From assembly GCA_028286405.1 (NCBI GenBank), contig JAQBRP010000011.1:1-61053 (forward strand): DNA of 61,053 nucleotides, in the 5' to 3' direction. The notes below the pieces were generated by a model, which was given only the letters and a program-made list of their open reading frames with translations, was not told the origin of the DNA and searched no databases. A program made the position numbers and the translations under genes. Positions 26,480 through 34,071 of this stretch are shown here, piece after piece. Positions within the stretch are counted from its first letter, which is position 1, and every line of letters starts with the position of its first letter. The stretch is from Candidatus Saccharimonadota bacterium (GTDB lineage: Bacteria; Patescibacteriota; Saccharimonadia; Saccharimonadales; UBA4665).

Positions 26480-27058
26480 TCAGTTCGGGTACTCGATTTG
26501 CACCGGATACACCGCGTTGTAACGCTGGCCATCGGCCGTGCGGTAGTGCAGGCTAACGTTGTTGTTCCGACTAACGTCGAAACCACGAACATCGGCTTTC
26601 AGCGCTGGGCCAACACGTACAACCAAGACATGCGCCTCACGGCGATTCTTGGTTGACGACAAGCAGTAGCCCTTAACGGGCGTCAGCTGCTTGCTTTTGC
26701 CGGCCGCCGTAATACGCTGTACTGCACCTGCAGGTGCCACGAACGCTCCGTCGAACTGGAGTGGCGCGGCATCATGGTCGGTGACAAGCTGTACTCGGTC
26801 CAGTAATACCGGTGAGTCACTGGTGTTGACCAGATCGATTACGTAGGCATCCTGGAGCTTGTCGGCGCGGGGGCGAACCATGCCGAAGCTAATCGACCCC
26901 GTCGGCGTTTCCAGCGGCCCACCGAGCTTTTCACGCTCGCTTACCTGATACTGGCATACGCCAGCCGCGGGCGGTGGTTCGGGCTTGTCGTCCCGACAGG
27001 CCGTCAGCAACAGCAGTAGTACCGCTGCCACCAACAGCTTCACGGTGCCTGACGGCAT
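26480..27058 (-). CDS. Putative lipoprotein, 192 aa (GC-rich)
   Basis: A short signal ending LLLLLTAC is a lipobox, so the protein should be lipidated at Cys ~21 and anchored outside the membrane. The mature part has an acidic-proline linker (RDDKPEPPPAAG) and a beta-rich domain with two further cysteines. No family recognised. Codons end in G or C more often than in housekeeping neighbours. It overlaps the upstream secreted-protein gene by 19 nt, so the pair is one operon with the long hairpin at 26362-26411. Lipid anchor is inferred from the motif; a role together with the 414-aa protein is likely. Confidence 0.75.
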   Translation of the reverse strand: MPSGTVKLLVAAVLLLLLTACRDDKPEPPPAAGVCQYQVSEREKLGGPLETPTGSISFGMVRPRADKLQDAYVIDLVNTSDSPVLLDRVQLVTDHDAAPLQFDGAFVAPAGAVQRITAAGKSKQLTPVKGYCLSSTKNRREAHVLVVRVGPALKADVRGFDVSRNNNVSLHYRTADGQRYNAVYPVQIEYPN

Positions 27059-28284
27059 CGCTTTGTCCGGTGCTCGGAGCGCGGGTAGCAGCCGCTCATG
27101 TCGCCGTGGTGAGGCTTGATGAACGACGGGTACAGCTTCGCAGAGTCGCTGACAAACTGTGCGTCGCCGCTGAGGCAGAACTTATGCTTGTGCCCCTTAT
27201 CGAACTCCAGACGCACCTCTGTCCCGGTGTCGTACTTGGCTGAGACCGTCAACGAGCTGCCCAGCGCCGAAGCCTTCACCGAGCTGGAGAACGTCACCCC
27301 TTGGGAGGTGGTGATGTGGTCCTGCTGCTTGTTGGTGAAGTACATGACGTTAGAGTTGCCCGTCGTGCACGGCTTGTAACCGGTGTTGAGCGTCTTGATG
27401 TCGCCCGTCCACTGGCCCGAGGACTCGGTGAAGCACTTCTGCTCACCAGTTCCCAAGTACGACCCAAAGTACGAGTTGTACGACTGGGCCGTGCACTTGT
27501 AGGCGCTCGATACCGCCAGTTCAGGTGCGATCAGCCTGGCGACCCGCGGATGCCTCTTGGTGGCGTTGAGCTGACGTCCCGATTCGAAGCCGGTGCTGCC
27601 GCCGATGGCGATCTCACCTGCCCCGCCGAAGCCGCCCTTCTCTAGGCCAACGATCGCTTTGACGTTGCGAACCGAGGCGGCGTTCAGCGTGTAGTGCGTC
27701 GTCATGTGAAGCACCGCCTGGCTGTACATCAGGGGCGGGGTGACGACGCTGACCGCCGTGTTAGCCACGCCGGTAGCGACCGTTCCGCCACCTTGCCGAC
27801 TGCTGGGTCGGGCCGACAGGGTTCCGTCGTAGACCTTGGCAGGCGTGAACCGGCTCGGCACAAGTTGCCTCGAAGCCTTGTAGTTCACCCCAACCATGCG
27901 CACGAAGAACTTCCCTCGCTGGTCGTAGACGTGTGCCAGTAGGTCGAAGTTGACCCGACCGCCGTGCCGCTTGGCGTAGGTAGACAGACCGCCCGTGCGA
28001 CACACCTGCAGGCTGTAGCCGCCCCGCTTGCTGGTGCGCATGCCATCGAGTGGCTTCTCCTTGCCGTGCAGCGTCACGATGATGCCGTAGCGCTTGAGGG
28101 CCTTGCCACCGCTGCTGATCGCTCGCCCGTGGAGGGTGATGGCGGAGCACGAAGAGGCTTCGGCTTCGCCCATCGAGGGTGTTACTGCGACGAGGAAAAA
28201 CGCTGCGAGACAGCTCATCACCAAACTGGCGATGGCGTTGTGTCGCAACCCCTCCCTCATCCTAGTTGTGAAGTTTCCAGACAT
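27040..28284 (-). CDS. Secreted protein with carboxypeptidase-regulatory-like N-domain (GC-rich)
   Basis: 414 aa. A signal peptide (IASLVMSCLAAFFLVAVTPSMGEAEA) is followed by a beta-sandwich segment resembling CarboxypepD_reg/Ig-like folds (ITLHGRAISSGGKALKRYGIIVTLHGKE.PLDG.RTSKRGGYSLQV). The central and C-terminal parts contain several cysteines and beta-rich stretches (VTFSSSVKASALGSSLTVSAKYDTGTEVRLEFDKG). I cannot name the family. SD GGGAGAG precedes the ATG by 7 nt. GC-ending codons and an Arg/Lys-rich tail set it apart; an actinobacterial-type origin is possible since hosts of this phylum are often Actinobacteria. First gene of the operon with the lipoprotein. Confidence 0.72.
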   Translation of the reverse strand: MSGNFTTRMREGLRHNAIASLVMSCLAAFFLVAVTPSMGEAEASSCSAITLHGRAISSGGKALKRYGIIVTLHGKEKPLDGMRTSKRGGYSLQVCRTGGLSTYAKRHGGRVNFDLLAHVYDQRGKFFVRMVGVNYKASRQLVPSRFTPAKVYDGTLSARPSSRQGGGTVATGVANTAVSVVTPPLMYSQAVLHMTTHYTLNAASVRNVKAIVGLEKGGFGGAGEIAIGGSTGFESGRQLNATKRHPRVARLIAPELAVSSAYKCTAQSYNSYFGSYLGTGEQKCFTESSGQWTGDIKTLNTGYKPCTTGNSNVMYFTNKQQDHITTSQGVTFSSSVKASALGSSLTVSAKYDTGTEVRLEFDKGHKHKFCLSGDAQFVSDSAKLYPSFIKPHHGDMSGCYPRSEHRTKRCRQAP

Positions 28285-28501: not shown

Positions 28502-30178
28502 TTACATCATGCCCATGCCGCCGCCCATACCAGCACCCATGCCGGCTGCGCCAGCATCAGACTTTGGTTCGGGAACGTCGACTACTAGTGCACCCATAGT
28601 CATGGCCGTACCGGCAACCGAAACAGCGTTTTGGACTGCTTCTTTAGTGACGCGAGCGGGATCAATGACTCCCTTAGCCTTCATGTCGACAAGCTTTGCT
28701 GGGTTGTTCACGTCCACACCAAATCCTGGCTTACCCGCCCGTACTTGTGGCAGCCATTCGTCAGGATTAAGGCCGGAGTTGGACAATAAGATTCTAAATG
28801 GCTGCTCAAGCGCTCGTTTTAGCAAGAATTTGCCGTTATTGTAGGCTACATCGTCGTCGCCCACGATCAGTTTCTGATCTTGAGTAATGCCGTCTGCCAA
28901 GTTAATCAGCGTTACACCACCACCAGGCACAATACCTTCGGCGAGAGCTGCTTTAACGGCCGCAACAGCGTCATCGACGCGGAACTTCTTTTCTTCAATT
29001 TCGGTTTCGGTAGCACCACCGACTTTAATGACGGCAACCTTGCCACTGAGTGCAGCCCGGCGCTTTTCCAGGAATTCTTTGTCGTATTCGCTGGTAGCGG
29101 CATCGGCTTGGGTTGCCAGCTGCTTGGTACGAGCGGCAACTTCGGCTGGGCTAGCGCCACCTTCGATGATGGTGGTTTCGTCTTTCGTAACAATCACGCG
29201 GCGGGCGGTACCGACTACGTTTAGGTCGACGTTTTCAAAGGTCATGCCACGGTCATCAGTAATTACTTCAGCGCCAGTCAAAATAGCAATGTCGTTTAGA
29301 ATGTCCTTGCGGCGGTCGCCAAACGAAGGAGCCTTAATTGCTACGGTGTTAAATACACCTTTGAGGCGGTTCAAGATGAAGGTGCCGAGGGCTTCGCCTT
29401 CGACATCTTCGGCAATCAGTACTAAGTCTTTTTTGCCGGACTGGGCGATTTTTTCGAGTAATGGCAGGAATTCTTGAATAGAACCGATTTTTTTATCGGT
29501 AATAATCACAGCTGGCTTGTCGTAAATGGCTTCCATACGCGAGGTGTCGGTCACCATGTAGGGGCTAACGAAGCCACGGTCGAAGGTAAAGCCTTCAACG
29601 ACTTCTTTTTCGAGCAAGAGTCCCTGCCCTTCTTCAACGGTAACGACGCCGTCTTTGCCAACGCCCTCCATGACTTCGGCAATAAGCGTTCCAATTTCAG
29701 TGTCGCCGGCGCTGATGCTAGCAACTTGGGCTACGCGCAACATCTTGCCTTCGATTGACTCAGCCATGCCGCTAAGCTCGGCTAACACCTCTTGGGCAGC
29801 AGCTTCCAGGCCCTTGCGTAGCAACATAGGGTTGTGCCCGGCAGCGATCAGCTTATTGGCTTCGTTCAGAATGTGGTAAGTCAGCACGGTTACGGTGGTA
29901 GTACCATCGCCAGCGACGTCGTTCATCTTGGAAGCTGCTTGTTTAATAAGCTCGGCACCAACTTTTTGGCCCAAGGTTTCGTCGTCAACATCAGCCAGTT
30001 CAACACCTTTAGCGACGGTTACACCATCGTGGGTGACGGTTGGGTTACCGAATGACTTACTAATAACTACGTTGCGGCCTTTGGGGCCCATGGTGGTTTT
30101 AACTGCGTTATATAAAATTTCGGCACCGGCCAGCACGCGGCGGCGGGCGTCATCATCGTAAAATACTTTTTTTGCCAT
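28502..30178 (-). CDS. groL: Chaperonin GroEL
   Basis: 558 aa. [40 protein letters not shown] and the ATP-binding [12 protein letters not shown] are unmistakable; the C-terminus ends in a GGM-repeat tail ([11 protein letters not shown]). Forms the double ring that folds proteins with GroES, which is encoded 12 bp upstream. Control by HrcA is expected from the CIRCE element at 30488. Complete and unmodified. Confidence 0.98.
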
Positions 30179-30190
30179 GTAGTTGCTCTC

Positions 30191-30457
30191 CTATTTAACC
30201 GTTGCCAGAATGTCTTCTTCTTTTACTAAAATGTACTCGGTGCCTTCGACTTTGACGTCGGTGTTGCTGTATGACTTATAAATAATGCGGTCACCAACTT
30301 TAACTTGCGTTGCAGCTGGGCCAACAGCCACAACCTTAGCAGTTTTGGGCTTTTCGGCGCTGTTTTCGGGTAAATAAATGCCACTGGCGGTTTTAGTTTC
30401 GGCCTGCTCGGCGGTCGCCACGACATAGTCGCCCAGGGGTTTCAGTGCTCCTGCCAT
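30191..30457 (-). CDS. groS: Co-chaperonin GroES
   Basis: 88 aa. LKPLGDYVVATAEQAETKTASGIYLPENSAEKPKTAKVVAVGP contains the mobile loop (TASGIYLPE), and the end is the usual VEGTEYILVKEEDILA. It caps the GroEL cavity. AAGGAGG is a full Shine-Dalgarno 8 nt before the ATG. It is the first gene of the heat-shock operon and lies directly downstream of the CIRCE operator. Confidence 0.97.
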   Translation of the reverse strand: MAGALKPLGDYVVATAEQAETKTASGIYLPENSAEKPKTAKVVAVGPAATQVKVGDRIIYKSYSNTDVKVEGTEYILVKEEDILATVK

Positions 30458-30557: not shown

Positions 30558-31259
30558 TCAACCTGCGGCAGCACTGGTACCAGTATTGCCGTCAAAGTCA
30601 GTTACCTCAGCTGCTCCGATAAGCTCAATCAGGTCTGACGTATTGAACCACTCAGTTGCGAGCTTCGCTTGGGCTTCGTAGGTGGCGAAGTCAGAAAAGA
30701 CAACATACAACTGACCTGCAGCTACCACTTCGGGCGCTGTGGGAATGATATCCTCTGGTAATTCATAGGCGTGGAGACCTGTGGGTGATAGAAGAAACTT
30801 GATTGAACTGCCATCACTCTTTATAGCCTCCCCAAAAACATCGCGCGTTGGAATATAGGCAGGACGTGATAAGTCCACAGCACTAGTCTCATCGAACTGC
30901 TTCGGTGCATTTTCCTTAATGTTTGCTAGGTACATGGCGCGTAGCGCATCACCCGCTGCTTCCCACTGTACAGTCGGAAAGTCCAAAACCATACGTGCAA
31001 TCGGCGTCTCAGTCTCCTGCTGGCCTGCTGGCATTAGCGCAACGGCGACGTGTCGCTGCAAACCCTGCCCATAGTCTTTGAGTCCCAGCTTGCGGGGTCG
31101 GCTACTGTTCTCGACCTCGCCAATTTGCATCATGGCATTGCGTTTTTCGGCGAATAGCCACTTTTTATGCGCCTCTGTAATAGCCTGCGCTAGTTGCAGA
31201 CTTTCAAATGAGCTGGGATCGGAATCTCCAGCAGTACCGGGGTAACCACGTTGACTCAT
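30558..31259 (-). CDS. Hypothetical protein, module 1 minus-strand partner
   Basis: 233 aa, soluble, no signal or TM. Helical N-terminal half (SLQLAQAITEAHKKWLFAEKRNAMMQIGEVEN), a beta-rich middle, and a C-terminal region ending in TDFDGNTGTSAAAG. No family recognised. A motif PTRDVFGEAIKSDGSSIKF resembles LPSDVYVERMKVNGKSIAI in the module 2 protein at 31949, so the two may be distant paralogs. TTGACA-N17-TAATAT ends 10 nt before the ATG. Divergent from the small GC-rich gene at 31367, with overlapping -35 boxes. Codon use is ordinary for the window, unlike its partner. Confidence 0.65.
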   Translation of the reverse strand: MSQRGYPGTAGDSDPSSFESLQLAQAITEAHKKWLFAEKRNAMMQIGEVENSSRPRKLGLKDYGQGLQRHVAVALMPAGQQETETPIARMVLDFPTVQWEAAGDALRAMYLANIKENAPKQFDETSAVDLSRPAYIPTRDVFGEAIKSDGSSIKFLLSPTGLHAYELPEDIIPTAPEVVAAGQLYVVFSDFATYEAQAKLATEWFNTSDLIELIGAAEVTDFDGNTGTSAAAG

Positions 31260-31269
31260 ATCAGTACTT

Positions 31270-31321
31270 ATATTAAAAGTTTATCTGTATTTTGTCAATA
31301 TTTGGTAATAACACATACTAT
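31270..31321. promoter_or_regulatory. Divergent promoters of module 1 with overlapping -35 boxes
   Basis: Minus strand: TTGACA (31298-31293), 17-nt spacer, TAATAT (31275-31270). Plus strand: TTGTCA (31292-31297), 18-nt spacer, TACTAT (31316-31321). The two -35 boxes share the string TTGTCAA, so occupancy by one polymerase should exclude the other. Confidence 0.75.
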
Positions 31322-31366
31322 GCTATTATTACTTCGTTCTGTCCAGAACCCGACCCGAGGAGAATA

Positions 31367-31729
31367 ATGTCCCCCACCCGCACCATGGATGCACCTGCCA
31401 TCGGCACCGTGCTCCTCCCCAAGGTTTCGCCCAACGACGAGACCGGCAAGCTCGTGCAGCGCGTAAAGACCCCCCTCAACATCACCCCCAAGGTCCTGCG
31501 CGACATGGAGCTGGCGGCGCTCGACCTCGATGTACCACCGACGGTGGCACTCGGTGACGAGCCCGGCGTCTTCATCTTCGAGTTCGACCCCGACACCGCC
31601 GAGAAGGCCATCCCCGGTCTGCTGAAGATCGTCTTCGAGGAGTTCGCAGTGCGTGACCAGCGTCACCGGAACTACCAGGAGTCCGGACCGGTTACTGCCG
31701 TCTACGGCGAGCTCAAGCAACACGGCTGA
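31367..31729 (+). CDS. Small GC-rich hypothetical protein, module 1 plus-strand partner
   Basis: 120 aa, soluble, acidic with a beta-alpha look (ITPKVLRDMELAALDLDVPPTVALGDEPGVFIFEFDPDTAEKAIPGLLKIVFEEFAVRD). No family recognised. Nearly every codon ends in C or G (for example GTGCTCCTCCCCAAGG), far more than neighbouring genes, indicating a different origin. GAGGAGAATA precedes the ATG. The plus-strand promoter overlaps the divergent one. A ~200-nt 3' region with three stem-loops follows. The 147-aa ORF on the opposite strand covering the same region is a GC-driven shadow. Confidence 0.68.
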   Translation: MSPTRTMDAPAIGTVLLPKVSPNDETGKLVQRVKTPLNITPKVLRDMELAALDLDVPPTVALGDEPGVFIFEFDPDTAEKAIPGLLKIVFEEFAVRDQRHRNYQESGPVTAVYGELKQHG

Positions 31730-31742
31730 CAGAACCACCCCA

Positions 31743-31797
31743 AAAAAGCCGGCCGGCTTCCCAGCATACTATCTGCAGAGTGCTGCGGGAGCCGGCC
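31743..31797 (-). terminator. Hairpin after the module 1 small gene, T-tract on minus strand
   Basis: GGCCGGCTTCCC...GGGAGCCGGCC with an extra AGCA/TGCT pairing gives a ~15-bp stem with two small bulges. On the minus strand it is followed by GGCTTTTTTGG, so it terminates leftward transcription, most likely of the 31949-32590 gene; on the plus strand it is only a 3'-UTR hairpin. Confidence 0.65.
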
Positions 31798-31807
31798 TGG
31801 TGGGGTG

Positions 31808-31884
31808 GCAAGCGGACTGAGTCGATCAGGATTATTTTTTGACCACCCGGTCACCAAATAACCCCAGAATCCTCGTCCGCTTGC
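31808..31884. ncRNA. Long nested stem-loop in module 1 3' region
   Basis: GCAAGCGGAC and GTCCGCTTGC pair perfectly (10 bp); inside, AGGATT pairs with AATCCT and TGACC-ACCC-GGTCA forms a tip. The whole is 77 nt with no T-tract at either end, so it is not a simple terminator. It could be a processed or protective RNA element, or a DNA site for a protein. Confidence 0.5.
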
Positions 31885-31911
31885 AACACATACTTACTTA
31901 AGAATTTTTGG

Positions 31912-31935
31912 CTCATGCATGATGCATGAGTTTTT
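31912..31935 (+). terminator. Terminator of the module 1 small gene
   Basis: CTCATGCA-TGA-TGCATGAG (8-bp stem) followed by TTTTTG on the plus strand. It lies next to the stop of the converging gene, so the 3' UTRs of the two genes overlap for ~200 nt. Confidence 0.7.
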
Positions 31936-31948
31936 GTTTGGCAAAATA

Positions 31949-32590
31949 CTAAAGATCGACAGCGCTAGCCGAACCGTCAGGGTTCACGGTGATTTCACGC
32001 TGCTTTATAGCATGCCAGTTAATCAAATCTTGGCTCAGGCCCGAAACAAGGGTGATTCCAGGCTCAAAGTCTGCATCGAAGGCGGCCCACGACAGATCTA
32101 CTGAGCCGACCACGCCTCCATCTTGCGAACTGCTCGTTGGTTTGGATTCATACATACTGAGAGCATTGATAGCATAGCGACCAACGATGGCAATCGATTT
32201 ACCATTTACCTTCATTCTTTCGACGTATACATCACTCGGTAACTCAAAGGCTTCCAAAGCCTCTTCGTCTTCCTCGTTGTAATCCTCCGGGACTGGGATA
32301 TGAAAGCGAAGGCGCTCGCTGGCCGTCTTATTCACCAGCACAAATGACCGAGATGACTGCAGCGCACTACTGAGCAACGGTACTTCTAGAGCATCGGGAG
32401 CAAGCCACAGTCGGTATTTAGTCGACTGCTGATTCTGAGCCACACTATCTTCAAGCTGAAAGCCCTTGAAGACGTCTACCGCATCCTTTATTAAGCCTAG
32501 GCGCAATATAGTAGCCTGTACTAGAAGACGCTCTTTGCTACGAGCATTGAAATCATCACGAAAATCTGGTGATAAGTTTGGTTGTGACAT
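31949..32590 (-). CDS. Hypothetical protein, module 2 minus-strand partner
   Basis: 213 aa from the ATG at 32590 (MSQPNLSPDF). Soluble, no signal. Helical N-terminus (FNARSKERLLVQATILRLGLIKDAVDVFK), then a mixed beta part, an acidic stretch (PEDYNEEDEEALEAFELP) and a C-terminal beta region. No family recognised. DVYVERMKVNGKSIAI resembles DVFGEAIKSDGSSIKF of the module 1 protein; both also begin MSQ. TATACT ends 4 nt before the ATG, and TTGACA lies 20 nt further up. The ORF-track start at 32626 would include the promoter. Divergent from the small gene at 32684. Confidence 0.65.
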   Translation of the reverse strand: MSQPNLSPDFRDDFNARSKERLLVQATILRLGLIKDAVDVFKGFQLEDSVAQNQQSTKYRLWLAPDALEVPLLSSALQSSRSFVLVNKTASERLRFHIPVPEDYNEEDEEALEAFELPSDVYVERMKVNGKSIAIVGRYAINALSMYESKPTSSSQDGGVVGSVDLSWAAFDADFEPGITLVSGLSQDLINWHAIKQREITVNPDGSASAVDL

Positions 32591-32594
32591 TAGT

Positions 32595-32648
32595 AGTATA
32601 ACAACAAAAAAATCAACTATTGTCAATAGCTACCGCCAGTAGTATACT
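32595..32648. promoter_or_regulatory. Divergent promoters of module 2 with overlapping -35 boxes
   Basis: Plus strand: TTGTCA (32620-32625), 17-nt spacer, TATACT (32643-32648). Minus strand: TTGACA (32626-32621), 20-nt spacer, TATACT (32600-32595). As in module 1, the string TTGTCAA holds both -35 boxes. Confidence 0.7.
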
Positions 32649-32683
32649 GTTGTGGTCCTGTTCCTCCTTTAGATTGGAAGCAC

Positions 32684-32998
32684 ATGTCCGTAGCCAGTGT
32701 GAACGATGACATCGTCATCGACCTCAGCCAGGCCCCGTACAAGGTCATCGCCGACAACTTCGATCGCCTCTTGATCACCATCGGGAAGCGCCGACACGTC
32801 GTACGCGTCAAGATCACCGATCGCACCACCAGGTCCCGCCTCGTCGTGGGGATCGACCTCAGGTCGGTGTCGCCGCAGCGTCGACAGAAGTTCCGCGAGG
32901 AACTGATCGCCGGCATCGAGCACGACACCCAGCACCGAGCCAACAACCCCGAGCCCTACGCCGTCGCCGGAAGGAAGAAGAACAAGGTCATGACCTGA
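32684..32998 (+). CDS. Small GC-rich hypothetical protein, module 2 plus-strand partner
   Basis: 104 aa, soluble, mostly basic with beta strands first (VIADNFDRLLITIGKRRHVVRVKITDRTTRSRLVVGIDLRSVSP) and a C-terminal helix (RRQKFREELIAGIEHDTQHRANN). No family recognised. The codon bias is the same extreme GC-ending type as the 31367 gene. TTGGAAGCAC precedes the ATG and the promoter is near-consensus. Two long stem-loops follow (33010-33129). The antisense 154-aa ORF across it is a GC shadow. A basic, beta-rich small protein could bind nucleic acid, but this is a guess. Confidence 0.68.
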   Translation: MSVASVNDDIVIDLSQAPYKVIADNFDRLLITIGKRRHVVRVKITDRTTRSRLVVGIDLRSVSPQRRQKFREELIAGIEHDTQHRANNPEPYAVAGRKKNKVMT

Positions 32999-33009
32999 CC
33001 AGGACCCAT

Positions 33010-33054
33010 GGAGGGTGCGTGGCAACTGCCACCCGCGCGCGCCACGCGCCCTCC
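33010..33054 (+). terminator. GC-rich stem-loop after the module 2 small gene
   Basis: GGAGGGTGCGTGGC pairs with GCCACGCGCCCTCC (14 bp, one G-U) around a 17-nt GC-rich loop. There is no T-tract behind it, so termination would be weak or protein-dependent; a stabilising 3' structure is equally possible. Confidence 0.5.
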
Positions 33055-33058
33055 GCCC

Positions 33059-33129
33059 CTGGGTTCGATAATACTTGGAGACACACCGTCTCTTGCCCAC
33101 AGCAATCCCCCAAGCATTATCGAACCCAG
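33059..33129. ncRNA. 71-nt nested stem-loop upstream of the amidinotransferase gene
   Basis: CTGGGTTCGATAAT and ATTATCGAACCCAG form a perfect 14-bp outer stem. Inside, CTTGG/CCAAG and GAGAC-ACACC-GTCTC pair again. It ends 5 nt before the TATAGT box of the next gene. It could act as the module 2 terminator, as a processing site, or as an operator. Confidence 0.5.
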
Positions 33130-33147
33130 TCACCTATAGTAGAACTT

Positions 33148-34071
33148 ATGATGTTTACGAAACACAAACACTTTAGCCCTCAGTTTAACCGCCAAGTACT
33201 AATGAGCGGCGCTGAGTACATGAGCAATCAGCTGGCCCTTAATCCCTACATGGACTCCAGCGTGCCGTTTGACGTGAAAAAAGCCGTACAGCAGCACACT
33301 GGCATCTGGAAAGCACTCGAGAGCATTGGCATTGCAGTTATTAAGCGTGACGCACCAAAAGACTGTCAGGACGGCATTTTTACCGCCAACGAGGGCCTGC
33401 TAGGCGTCGACAACAAAACCATCCTAATAGCTCGCTTGCCCAAGGGCCGCGAACAAGAAACGCCCTATTTCGACAATATCTTCCGGGAACTCGATAAAAC
33501 CGTGCTCTACCTGCCTAATACCGATTGGTTTTTTAGTGGTCAGGGCGATGCCCTGCGCTACGGCCCGTATCTGTTAGCCGGTCAACAGTTCCGCACTGCG
33601 CCCGGCCCTGAGGTGCACGCCTTTATTGCCGAGCATTTAGGCTACGAAGTGATTAGCCTGCAGGCTAAAGCGCTGCTAAACGACGATGGCTCACGCAACA
33701 TGAACGACGTTACGGGCTTACCTAACAGCGAGTTCTACGACATTGATTACGCCATAGCACCTATTCGCTGGCCATCCGCCACCCAAAAAGGTCTACTGGT
33801 CGTATGCCGTGAAGCGCTTGAGCCTGAAAGCCTCGATAAAATCATAGCCCTGCCAAACACTGAAATCATCTGGGCACCCTACGACGAAGCTACTGGTGTG
33901 AGCGCCTGCAATCTGGTGGCCACCGGCGAAGCCGTCGTTATGAATGCCGGTGCGCCAGTACTCGAAAAAGCTCTGCGCAAGGCGGGCTTACACGTTGTCA
34001 CCACGGTGAATGACGAGCTCAAAAAGAATGGGGGCTCGGTGCGCTGCACCACGCTCACCACCCTACACTAG
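33148..34071 (+). CDS. Amidinotransferase / arginine-deiminase-like protein (DDAH type)
   Basis: 307 aa from the ATG at 33148; TATAGT ends 7 nt before it. The pentein (guanidino-group-modifying) fold is indicated by DGIFTANEG near residue 68, an internal D.DALRYGPYLLAGQQFRT-type segment and the C-terminal GGSVRCTTL with the catalytic Cys. This order fits the dimethylarginine dimethylaminohydrolase/arginine deiminase group. It may hydrolyse free arginine or a methylated or modified arginine; a fully classical ArcA is longer (~400 aa), so substrate is uncertain. Arginine use has been linked to Saccharibacteria fitness, but no arcB or arcC is next to it. It abuts murE stop to stop. Confidence 0.85.
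   Translation: MMFTKHKHFSPQFNRQVLMSGAEYMSNQLALNPYMDSSVPFDVKKAVQQHTGIWKALESIGIAVIKRDAPKDCQDGIFTANEGLLGVDNKTILIARLPKGREQETPYFDNIFRELDKTVLYLPNTDWFFSGQGDALRYGPYLLAGQQFRTAPGPEVHAFIAEHLGYEVISLQAKALLNDDGSRNMNDVTGLPNSEFYDIDYAIAPIRWPSATQKGLLVVCREALEPESLDKIIALPNTEIIWAPYDEATGVSACNLVATGEAVVMNAGAPVLEKALRKAGLHVVTTVNDELKKNGGSVRCTTLTTLH

Follow-up and report, generated by a model that had tools for sequence, protein, structure and literature searches.

We examined a 61,053-nucleotide (nt) stretch of DNA, hereafter the window, from a Candidatus Saccharimonadota bacterium (contig JAQBRP010000011.1 of assembly GCA_028286405.1), and focused on two adjacent gene modules in which a minus-strand gene and a shorter plus-strand gene are transcribed away from each other. 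The genome that contains the window is a 636-kb assembly, 75% complete, which we refer to as G000; G002, G007, G043, G061, G066, G085 and similar labels denote genomes of its relatives. A first-pass annotation, made from the sequence alone, had described two look-alike divergent modules, and we recovered all four open reading frames (ORFs) where it had placed them. Module 1 consists of minus gene 1 (30558-31259, minus strand; 233 amino acids) and plus gene 1 (31367-31729, plus strand; 120 amino acids), the latter preceded by a Shine-Dalgarno-like GAGGAG at 31357-31362, while module 2 consists of minus gene 2 (31949-32590, minus strand; 213 amino acids) and plus gene 2 (32684-32998, plus strand; 104 amino acids). 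The sizes measured, 213-233 amino acids for the minus genes and 104-120 for the plus genes, agree with those first proposed. The modules are flanked on one side by groES (30191-30457, minus strand; named from its sequence), which is their conserved neighbour and is followed by groEL (28502-30178), and on the other side by a dimethylargininase-like gene. The genome is Saccharibacterial: its GroEL reaches 84% identity with GroELs of Candidatus Saccharibacteria metagenome-assembled genomes.

The divergent modules and their proteins

The four proteins had been unrecognised in the first-pass annotation, and they remained so: searches of Pfam, PHROGs, NCBIfam and PADLOC gave no significant hit for any of them, and a sequence search of the PDB likewise returned nothing. 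AlphaFold models of the two plus proteins were of modest confidence (predicted local distance difference test 61 and 69) and suggested a similar beta-alpha-beta-beta-alpha order of elements in both, with a further beta element at the start in plus protein 2 (beta-beta-alpha-beta-beta-alpha); compared with PDB structures, neither model had a significant match, and the best matches of the second were generic ferredoxin-like folds. When 99 related genomes were searched directly with the protein sequences, minus protein 2 had a single relative, in G061 (blastp E 5e-10), and the other three proteins had none. A profile built from these two minus sequences detected a further weak relative in G090 (E 2.4e-4) among 393 genomes of the order. 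Pattern searches recovered no relatives of plus protein 2 in 84,980 species and none of plus protein 1 in viral contigs. Between the modules, sequence homology of the two plus proteins was not detected and the similarity of the two minus proteins is only suggestive; together with the common layout and the matching element order predicted for the plus proteins, that similarity, which is not proof at the sequence level, suggests that the two modules may have arisen by an old duplication.

Both divergent intergenic regions contain the box TTGTCAA. In module 1 (31292-31298) it is common to the -35 elements of both directions, read as TTGACA on the minus strand and TTGTCA on the plus strand. The minus promoter (31298-31270) has a consensus match of 10/12 and the plus promoter (31292-31319 or 31302-31329) one of 9/12, with an extended -10 (TGCTATTAT) for plus gene 1 predicted at 31324-31329. 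In module 2 the box (32620-32626) is canonical for the plus gene, whose promoter (32620-32648; consensus match 10/12) includes a predicted -10 TATACT at 32643-32648, but a consensus scan found no minus promoter there. Overlapping -35 boxes had been proposed for both modules; the overlap is clear for module 1 and only partial for module 2, because a minus-strand -10 would need a 20-nt spacer. Across the module region we counted 10 promoter-like sites, compared to 2.1 +/- 1.7 in shuffles. As far as promoter sequence can indicate, the overlapping boxes make it reasonable to suppose that transcription of the minus and plus genes would be mutually exclusive, and the idea that the modules act as switches is plausible.

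The pair is also conserved outside the window. Three other Saccharibacteria (G061, G090 and L243, the last found among 80 named groEL loci that we compared) carry a homolog of minus gene 2 that lies upstream of groES and faces a plus gene of about 105 amino acids across a TTGTCAA box. In G061 the homolog adjoins groES and faces a 103-amino-acid plus gene with a G+C content at third codon positions (GC3) of 0.88; TTGTCAA and TATAAT boxes lie between the two genes, and the plus gene is followed by a strong hairpin. G090 has, in the same place, a split-frame minus homolog facing a plus gene of about 105 amino acids (GC3 0.69, with groEL at 0.60), together with the TTGTCAA box and a CCCGGACGGG...CCCGTCCGGG hairpin. 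At L243 the minus gene is related to minus gene 2 (hhalign E 2.6e-5), the plus gene encodes 111 amino acids at GC3 0.86 and matches the plus profile (E 0.0035), and TTGTCAA and TATACT lie between them. Other GC3-rich small genes diverge from the groES side at L276, L224, L235 and L253, and at L224 and L235 this plus-type gene stands by groES with no minus gene in between. Judged from these loci, each recognisable minus gene is kept together with a plus partner, and the plus-type gene also occurs alone. The dimethylargininase/arginine dihydrolase-like gene on the other side of the modules (33145-34071, plus strand; NCBIfam E 3e-28, under the cut-off) is present in about half of the searched relatives and several times adjoins groES.

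These comparisons bear on the earlier proposal of a two-state switch or a toxin/antitoxin-like pair. On such a reading the minus protein would regulate or neutralise the plus protein and exclusive promoters would make the system bistable. The divergent pair with its TTGTCAA box is kept in four homologous loci, both genes are present wherever a minus homolog was found, and end-paired mRNAs are a feature of the type I toxins hok and AapA1. In switches of the cI/cro type, divergent gene pairs likewise have overlapping promoters, and the window modules resemble them in their back-to-back genes and overlapping -35 region; they differ in that neither gene of a module encodes a recognised DNA-binding protein. 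Type II toxin/antitoxin operons also keep two small genes together, but those genes are co-transcribed whereas the window genes are divergent, and here no Pfam, NCBIfam or PADLOC match points to such a system. No toxin/antitoxin, defence or DNA-binding family was matched, the plus proteins (104-147 amino acids, predicted alpha/beta) are not small hydrophobic peptides, and L224 and L235 carry a GC3-rich gene in the groES slot without a minus partner. The toxin/antitoxin-like label is not borne out by these data, and we regard this explanation as a whole as improbable.

Codon usage and structured ends of the plus genes

ORFs of at least 300 amino acids in G000 have a mean GC3 of 0.579 (standard deviation 0.058), and only 1% of its ORFs of at least 100 amino acids with a Shine-Dalgarno-like sequence reach a GC3 of 0.85 or more. 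The plus genes stand at 0.850 and 0.885, with normal G+C at first and second positions (GC1 and GC2), and the minus genes at 0.485 and 0.479. Extreme GC-ending codons had been ascribed to the plus genes only, which holds within the module interval but not outside it, since about a dozen ORFs elsewhere have the same property, including one at 27040-28284 in the window. The GC1/GC2/GC3 values of this class of genes are 0.62/0.39/0.84 in G000 (genome 0.60/0.40/0.57) and 0.59/0.42/0.86 in G002 (genome 0.61/0.41/0.63), and the codons TTA, AGA and ATA are nearly absent from it. Selection on folding of the coding region was considered as the main cause of the high GC3 and rejected, as synonymous shuffles show little.

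GC3-rich genes could instead be recent imports from high-GC bacteria, for example from actinobacterial hosts. The codon usage of the class is nearer to that of Rhodococcus (distance 0.12) than to that of its own genome (0.24), and TGA stops are enriched in the G000 members (9/13 vs 21/171), though not in those of G002 (5/32), which favour TAG. Only third positions are shifted, however, which argues against import: GC1 and GC2 equal those of the own genome and not those of a Rhodococcus plasmid (0.70/0.51/0.80). In addition, the choice between C- and G-ending codons for Ala, Gly and Arg is that of the own genome, the pattern searches described above found no relatives of plus protein 2 among species or of plus protein 1 in viral contigs, and several Saccharibacteria keep the module in synteny with groES. 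We consider import very unlikely.

Long stem-loops behind the plus genes, noted in the first-pass annotation, proved to be far beyond chance: the four strong hairpins have z scores of -5.2 to -7.5 and were unequalled in 200 shuffles. Plus gene 1 is followed by a large GC-rich hairpin (31735-31808; -50.8 kcal/mol including flank, z -6.4), a second long hairpin (GCAAGCGGAC...GTCCGCTTGC) at 31809-31886 (-51.3 kcal/mol, z -5.4 in the shuffle test), and a terminator-like stem of 10 bp with a T run at 31910-31937. Behind plus gene 2 lie a GC-rich hairpin at 32999-33062 (-40.7 kcal/mol, z -5.2) and a second one with 20-nt arms at 33059-33129 (-33.3 kcal/mol, z -7.5), all on the plus strand.

The plus genes also have complementary arms at their two ends. 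The leader predicted for plus gene 1 contains a 5' arm, GTTCTGTC (31336-31343), that is complementary over 8 nt to a 3' arm, GACAGAAC (31728-31735), that begins inside the stop codon (shuffle p 0.0008). In plus gene 2 the corresponding arms are GGTCCTG in the predicted leader (32654-32660) and CAGGACC just past the stop (33000-33006), complementary over 7 nt (shuffle p 0.027). For the analysis of 5'-3' pairing we replaced RNA duplex energies with exact-match permutation tests, because the energies were too permissive.

Further large GC3-rich genes were seen in addition. The ORF at 27040-28284 (minus strand) is an unrecognised gene of 414 amino acids with GC3 0.82, a signal-peptide-like start and its own promoter-like sequence, and adjoins groEL; L012 4678-6120 and G000 C4 18718-20184 (L009/L026) are large genes of GC3 0.79-0.84 outside the window in G000, also with signal-peptide-like starts.

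A wider class with a common leader and hammerhead ribozymes

The strongest result of the analysis, and an unexpected one, is a wider class of small genes with a common leader and often a hammerhead ribozyme. Because it first came to attention in G000, the evidence from other genomes weighs most heavily; both gene starts and transcription starts in this part of the work are predicted. Among the roughly one dozen single high-GC3 ORFs of G000, most of which have promoter-like sequence and structured flanks, a 114-amino-acid GC3-rich gene (L021, G000:C17:4653-4997) has a type III hammerhead downstream, at C17:5103-5157, whose score of 44.4 bits (E 4.6e-9) is under the Rfam gathering score of 48.5. 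The leader of this gene, TGACAAGCAGACT, pairs with AGTCTGCTTGTCA immediately before the hammerhead cleavage site. Hammerheads of this family were detected in 20/99 relatives and 0/14 control genomes (E<=0.001). A pattern search, which gave 1 match in the reversed controls of the two genomes combined, identified 18 hammerheads in 773 kb of G002, 18/18 at 53-210 nt past the stop of a small ORF, the ORF assignment for C6 24249 (reverse strand) being uncertain; nearly all of these ORFs are GC3-rich (0.67-0.94, compared to a genome mean of 0.64).

The class leaders of G000 and G002 have a common element, consisting of a hairpin and then AAGCAC-YTT-NACAAG, which matched no Rfam family when the G000 loci were scanned. 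A sequence model of this element (R1), built from sequences with trimmed loops, has matches in 17/99 relatives (L175-L204), upstream of small genes. We evaluated a test set of 22 matches in 14 genomes that were not used for building the model, in which a -10-like box lies a short fixed distance before the element and an ORF at +63 to +181. GC3 in these ORFs, whose choice favoured GC3-rich frames, is 0.68 compared to 0.53 in neighbouring ORFs (16/20 higher, Wilcoxon p 0.0005). The leaders match their own 3' regions over 8.9 nt and those of others over 6.4 nt (permutation p<5e-5). Own pairs likewise exceed mismatched pairs in G000 (p 0.001), in G002 (p 0.01) and next to hammerheads (p<1e-4), whereas ordinary genes have no such excess (p 0.28). 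The 3' pairing segment lies either directly past the stop or immediately ahead of the site cleaved by the hammerhead. In the AT-rich G007 and G043 the codon shift is only a relative one: their leader-bearing genes have a GC3 of no more than 0.24-0.29, which is still above that of their neighbours.

A more ordinary account of these features would be that GC-ending codons reflect high expression or chance composition, that the hairpins are common terminators and that the arm matches are coincidental. Strong promoter-like sequence in most class members and the ability of the hairpins to terminate transcription fit this account, as does the absence of the arms from the G061 and G090 homologs. Yet groEL, which is normally highly expressed, has a GC3 of only 0.53, the shift affects only third positions, in single genes flanked by others at 0.46-0.58, and complementarity between leader and 3' region is not seen in ordinary genes. 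Overall we consider this account unlikely, though worth serious consideration.

Another possibility is that the plus mRNAs, and with them the class as a whole (GC3-rich messages with a leader, paired ends and a hammerhead or hairpin at the 3' end), are RNA-borne effectors, delivered into an actinobacterial host for translation. Their Actinobacteria-like GC3, the scarcity of TTA, AGA and ATA codons and mRNA ends that appear hardened against nucleases would suit such a role. The leader-bearing genes of G007 and G043, however, are raised over their neighbours without being host-like in GC3, and the choice between C- and G-ending codons follows the own genome. Delivery to a host, whether of the plus mRNAs or of the whole class, appears highly improbable.

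Several further loci were observed in the course of these searches. G002 contains arrays of small GC3-rich orphan genes with several hammerheads at C1:249559-260521 (L125, L126) and C6:23309-38120 (L065, L134). In other Patescibacteria (L155-L172) hammerheads also follow small ORFs, with GC3 often, not always, above that of the neighbours. In L080 (G085) and L072 (G066) a hammerhead lies 130-140 nt past the last gene of a three-gene set that, by eye, resembles a JAB/E1/ThiS-type ubiquitin-related operon. Lastly, a class gene on C10 of G000 (L034 7187-7597) and L186 of the AT-rich G007 look homologous (MHKIILVIGEVTRDQYQ / MSKILLVVGNVSEDQYQ) at GC3 values of 0.82 and 0.29, respectively; the L186 gene bears both the leader and a hammerhead.

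Proposed function and precedents

We estimate a probability of about 50% that the modules are a Saccharibacterial divergent pair in which the plus gene yields a nuclease-resistant, end-closed mRNA and the minus and plus genes are expressed alternately. The conserved module would consist of two divergently transcribed genes with a common -35 region. Firing of the plus promoter would produce a short mRNA built against nucleases, protected by GC-ending codons, by pairing of the leader with a segment at or just past the stop, and by one or two stable 3' hairpins. The two ends of the message would be brought together and the 3' end sealed by the hairpins, so that it would work like class messages whose 3' end is a hairpin or a hammerhead ribozyme. 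Because two polymerases could not occupy the overlapping promoters together, expression would alternate between the minus and plus genes, and most clearly so in module 1. The computation directly establishes the genes and their joint conservation, the codon bias, the hairpins, the complementary arms in the window and the wider class; from these features we infer the transcription starts, the pairing of the ends in the cell, the stability of the mRNA, the alternation of expression and any effects of the proteins.

Some results weigh against this interpretation. The window plus genes lack the R1 leader (the best score in either leader is 0.1 bits, at 32676-32684, and they are not among the genome-wide matches) and lack a hammerhead, which in G000 occurs only on C17. 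The arms are short, and those of plus gene 2 by themselves reach only p 0.027; the 3' arm of that gene also competes with the base of its hairpin, as its first bases pair with 33058-33062 as well. Stop-adjacent arms are absent in the homologs in G061 (p 0.97) and G090 (p 0.51), and coding regions are only marginally more stably folded than their synonymous shuffles (mean z -0.6). What the window plus genes have in common with the class is the codon shift, the stop-adjacent arms and the large 3' hairpins. Given that they have neither the leader nor the ribozyme, we liken them to the class and do not place them in it; in sequence features the window modules are outlying look-alikes of a wider Saccharibacterial class of messages.

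Each element of the window modules has a precedent, and the wider class with its common leader is further from any precedent known to us. The mRNAs of type I toxins such as hok/sok and AapA1/IsoA1 fold back on themselves, with the 5' leader pairing with the 3' end and with strong terminal structures. By analogy, the hok and AapA1 messages are the nearest precedent for the end pairing proposed here, with the same combination of long-range leader/3' pairing and strong terminal structures. They differ in that the proteins considered here are larger and are not hydrophobic toxins, and in that one leader family serves many unrelated proteins.

For the wider class, the nearest precedent is found in prophages, where hammerheads were reported on the flanks of single genes that differ in identity from case to case (Perreault et al. 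2011, PMC3088659). In both cases self-cleaving hammerheads lie just outside single genes whose identity changes, which suggests single-gene messages. The class described here differs in its occurrence in Saccharibacterial chromosomes and in consisting of genes that have their own promoter, a common leader, pairing ends and GC3-rich codons, and the window modules themselves have no prophage context and no flanking hammerhead. We found no literature that links hammerheads to Saccharibacteria or Patescibacteria, in a search that did not include most subscription papers and preprints.

If these interpretations are correct, an epibiotic lineage with a very small genome would mark a mostly unrecognised set of genes by a common RNA architecture, made up of a leader, 5'-3' pairing, codon-level GC enrichment and 3' ends that are self-cleaved or closed by hairpins. 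With this architecture as a guide, genomes could be searched in a simple way for a hidden set of genes that is possibly important for host-bound life. It would also point to a specific task for bacterial hammerhead ribozymes, and the divergent pair linked to groES would then be an outlying example with a built-in expression switch.

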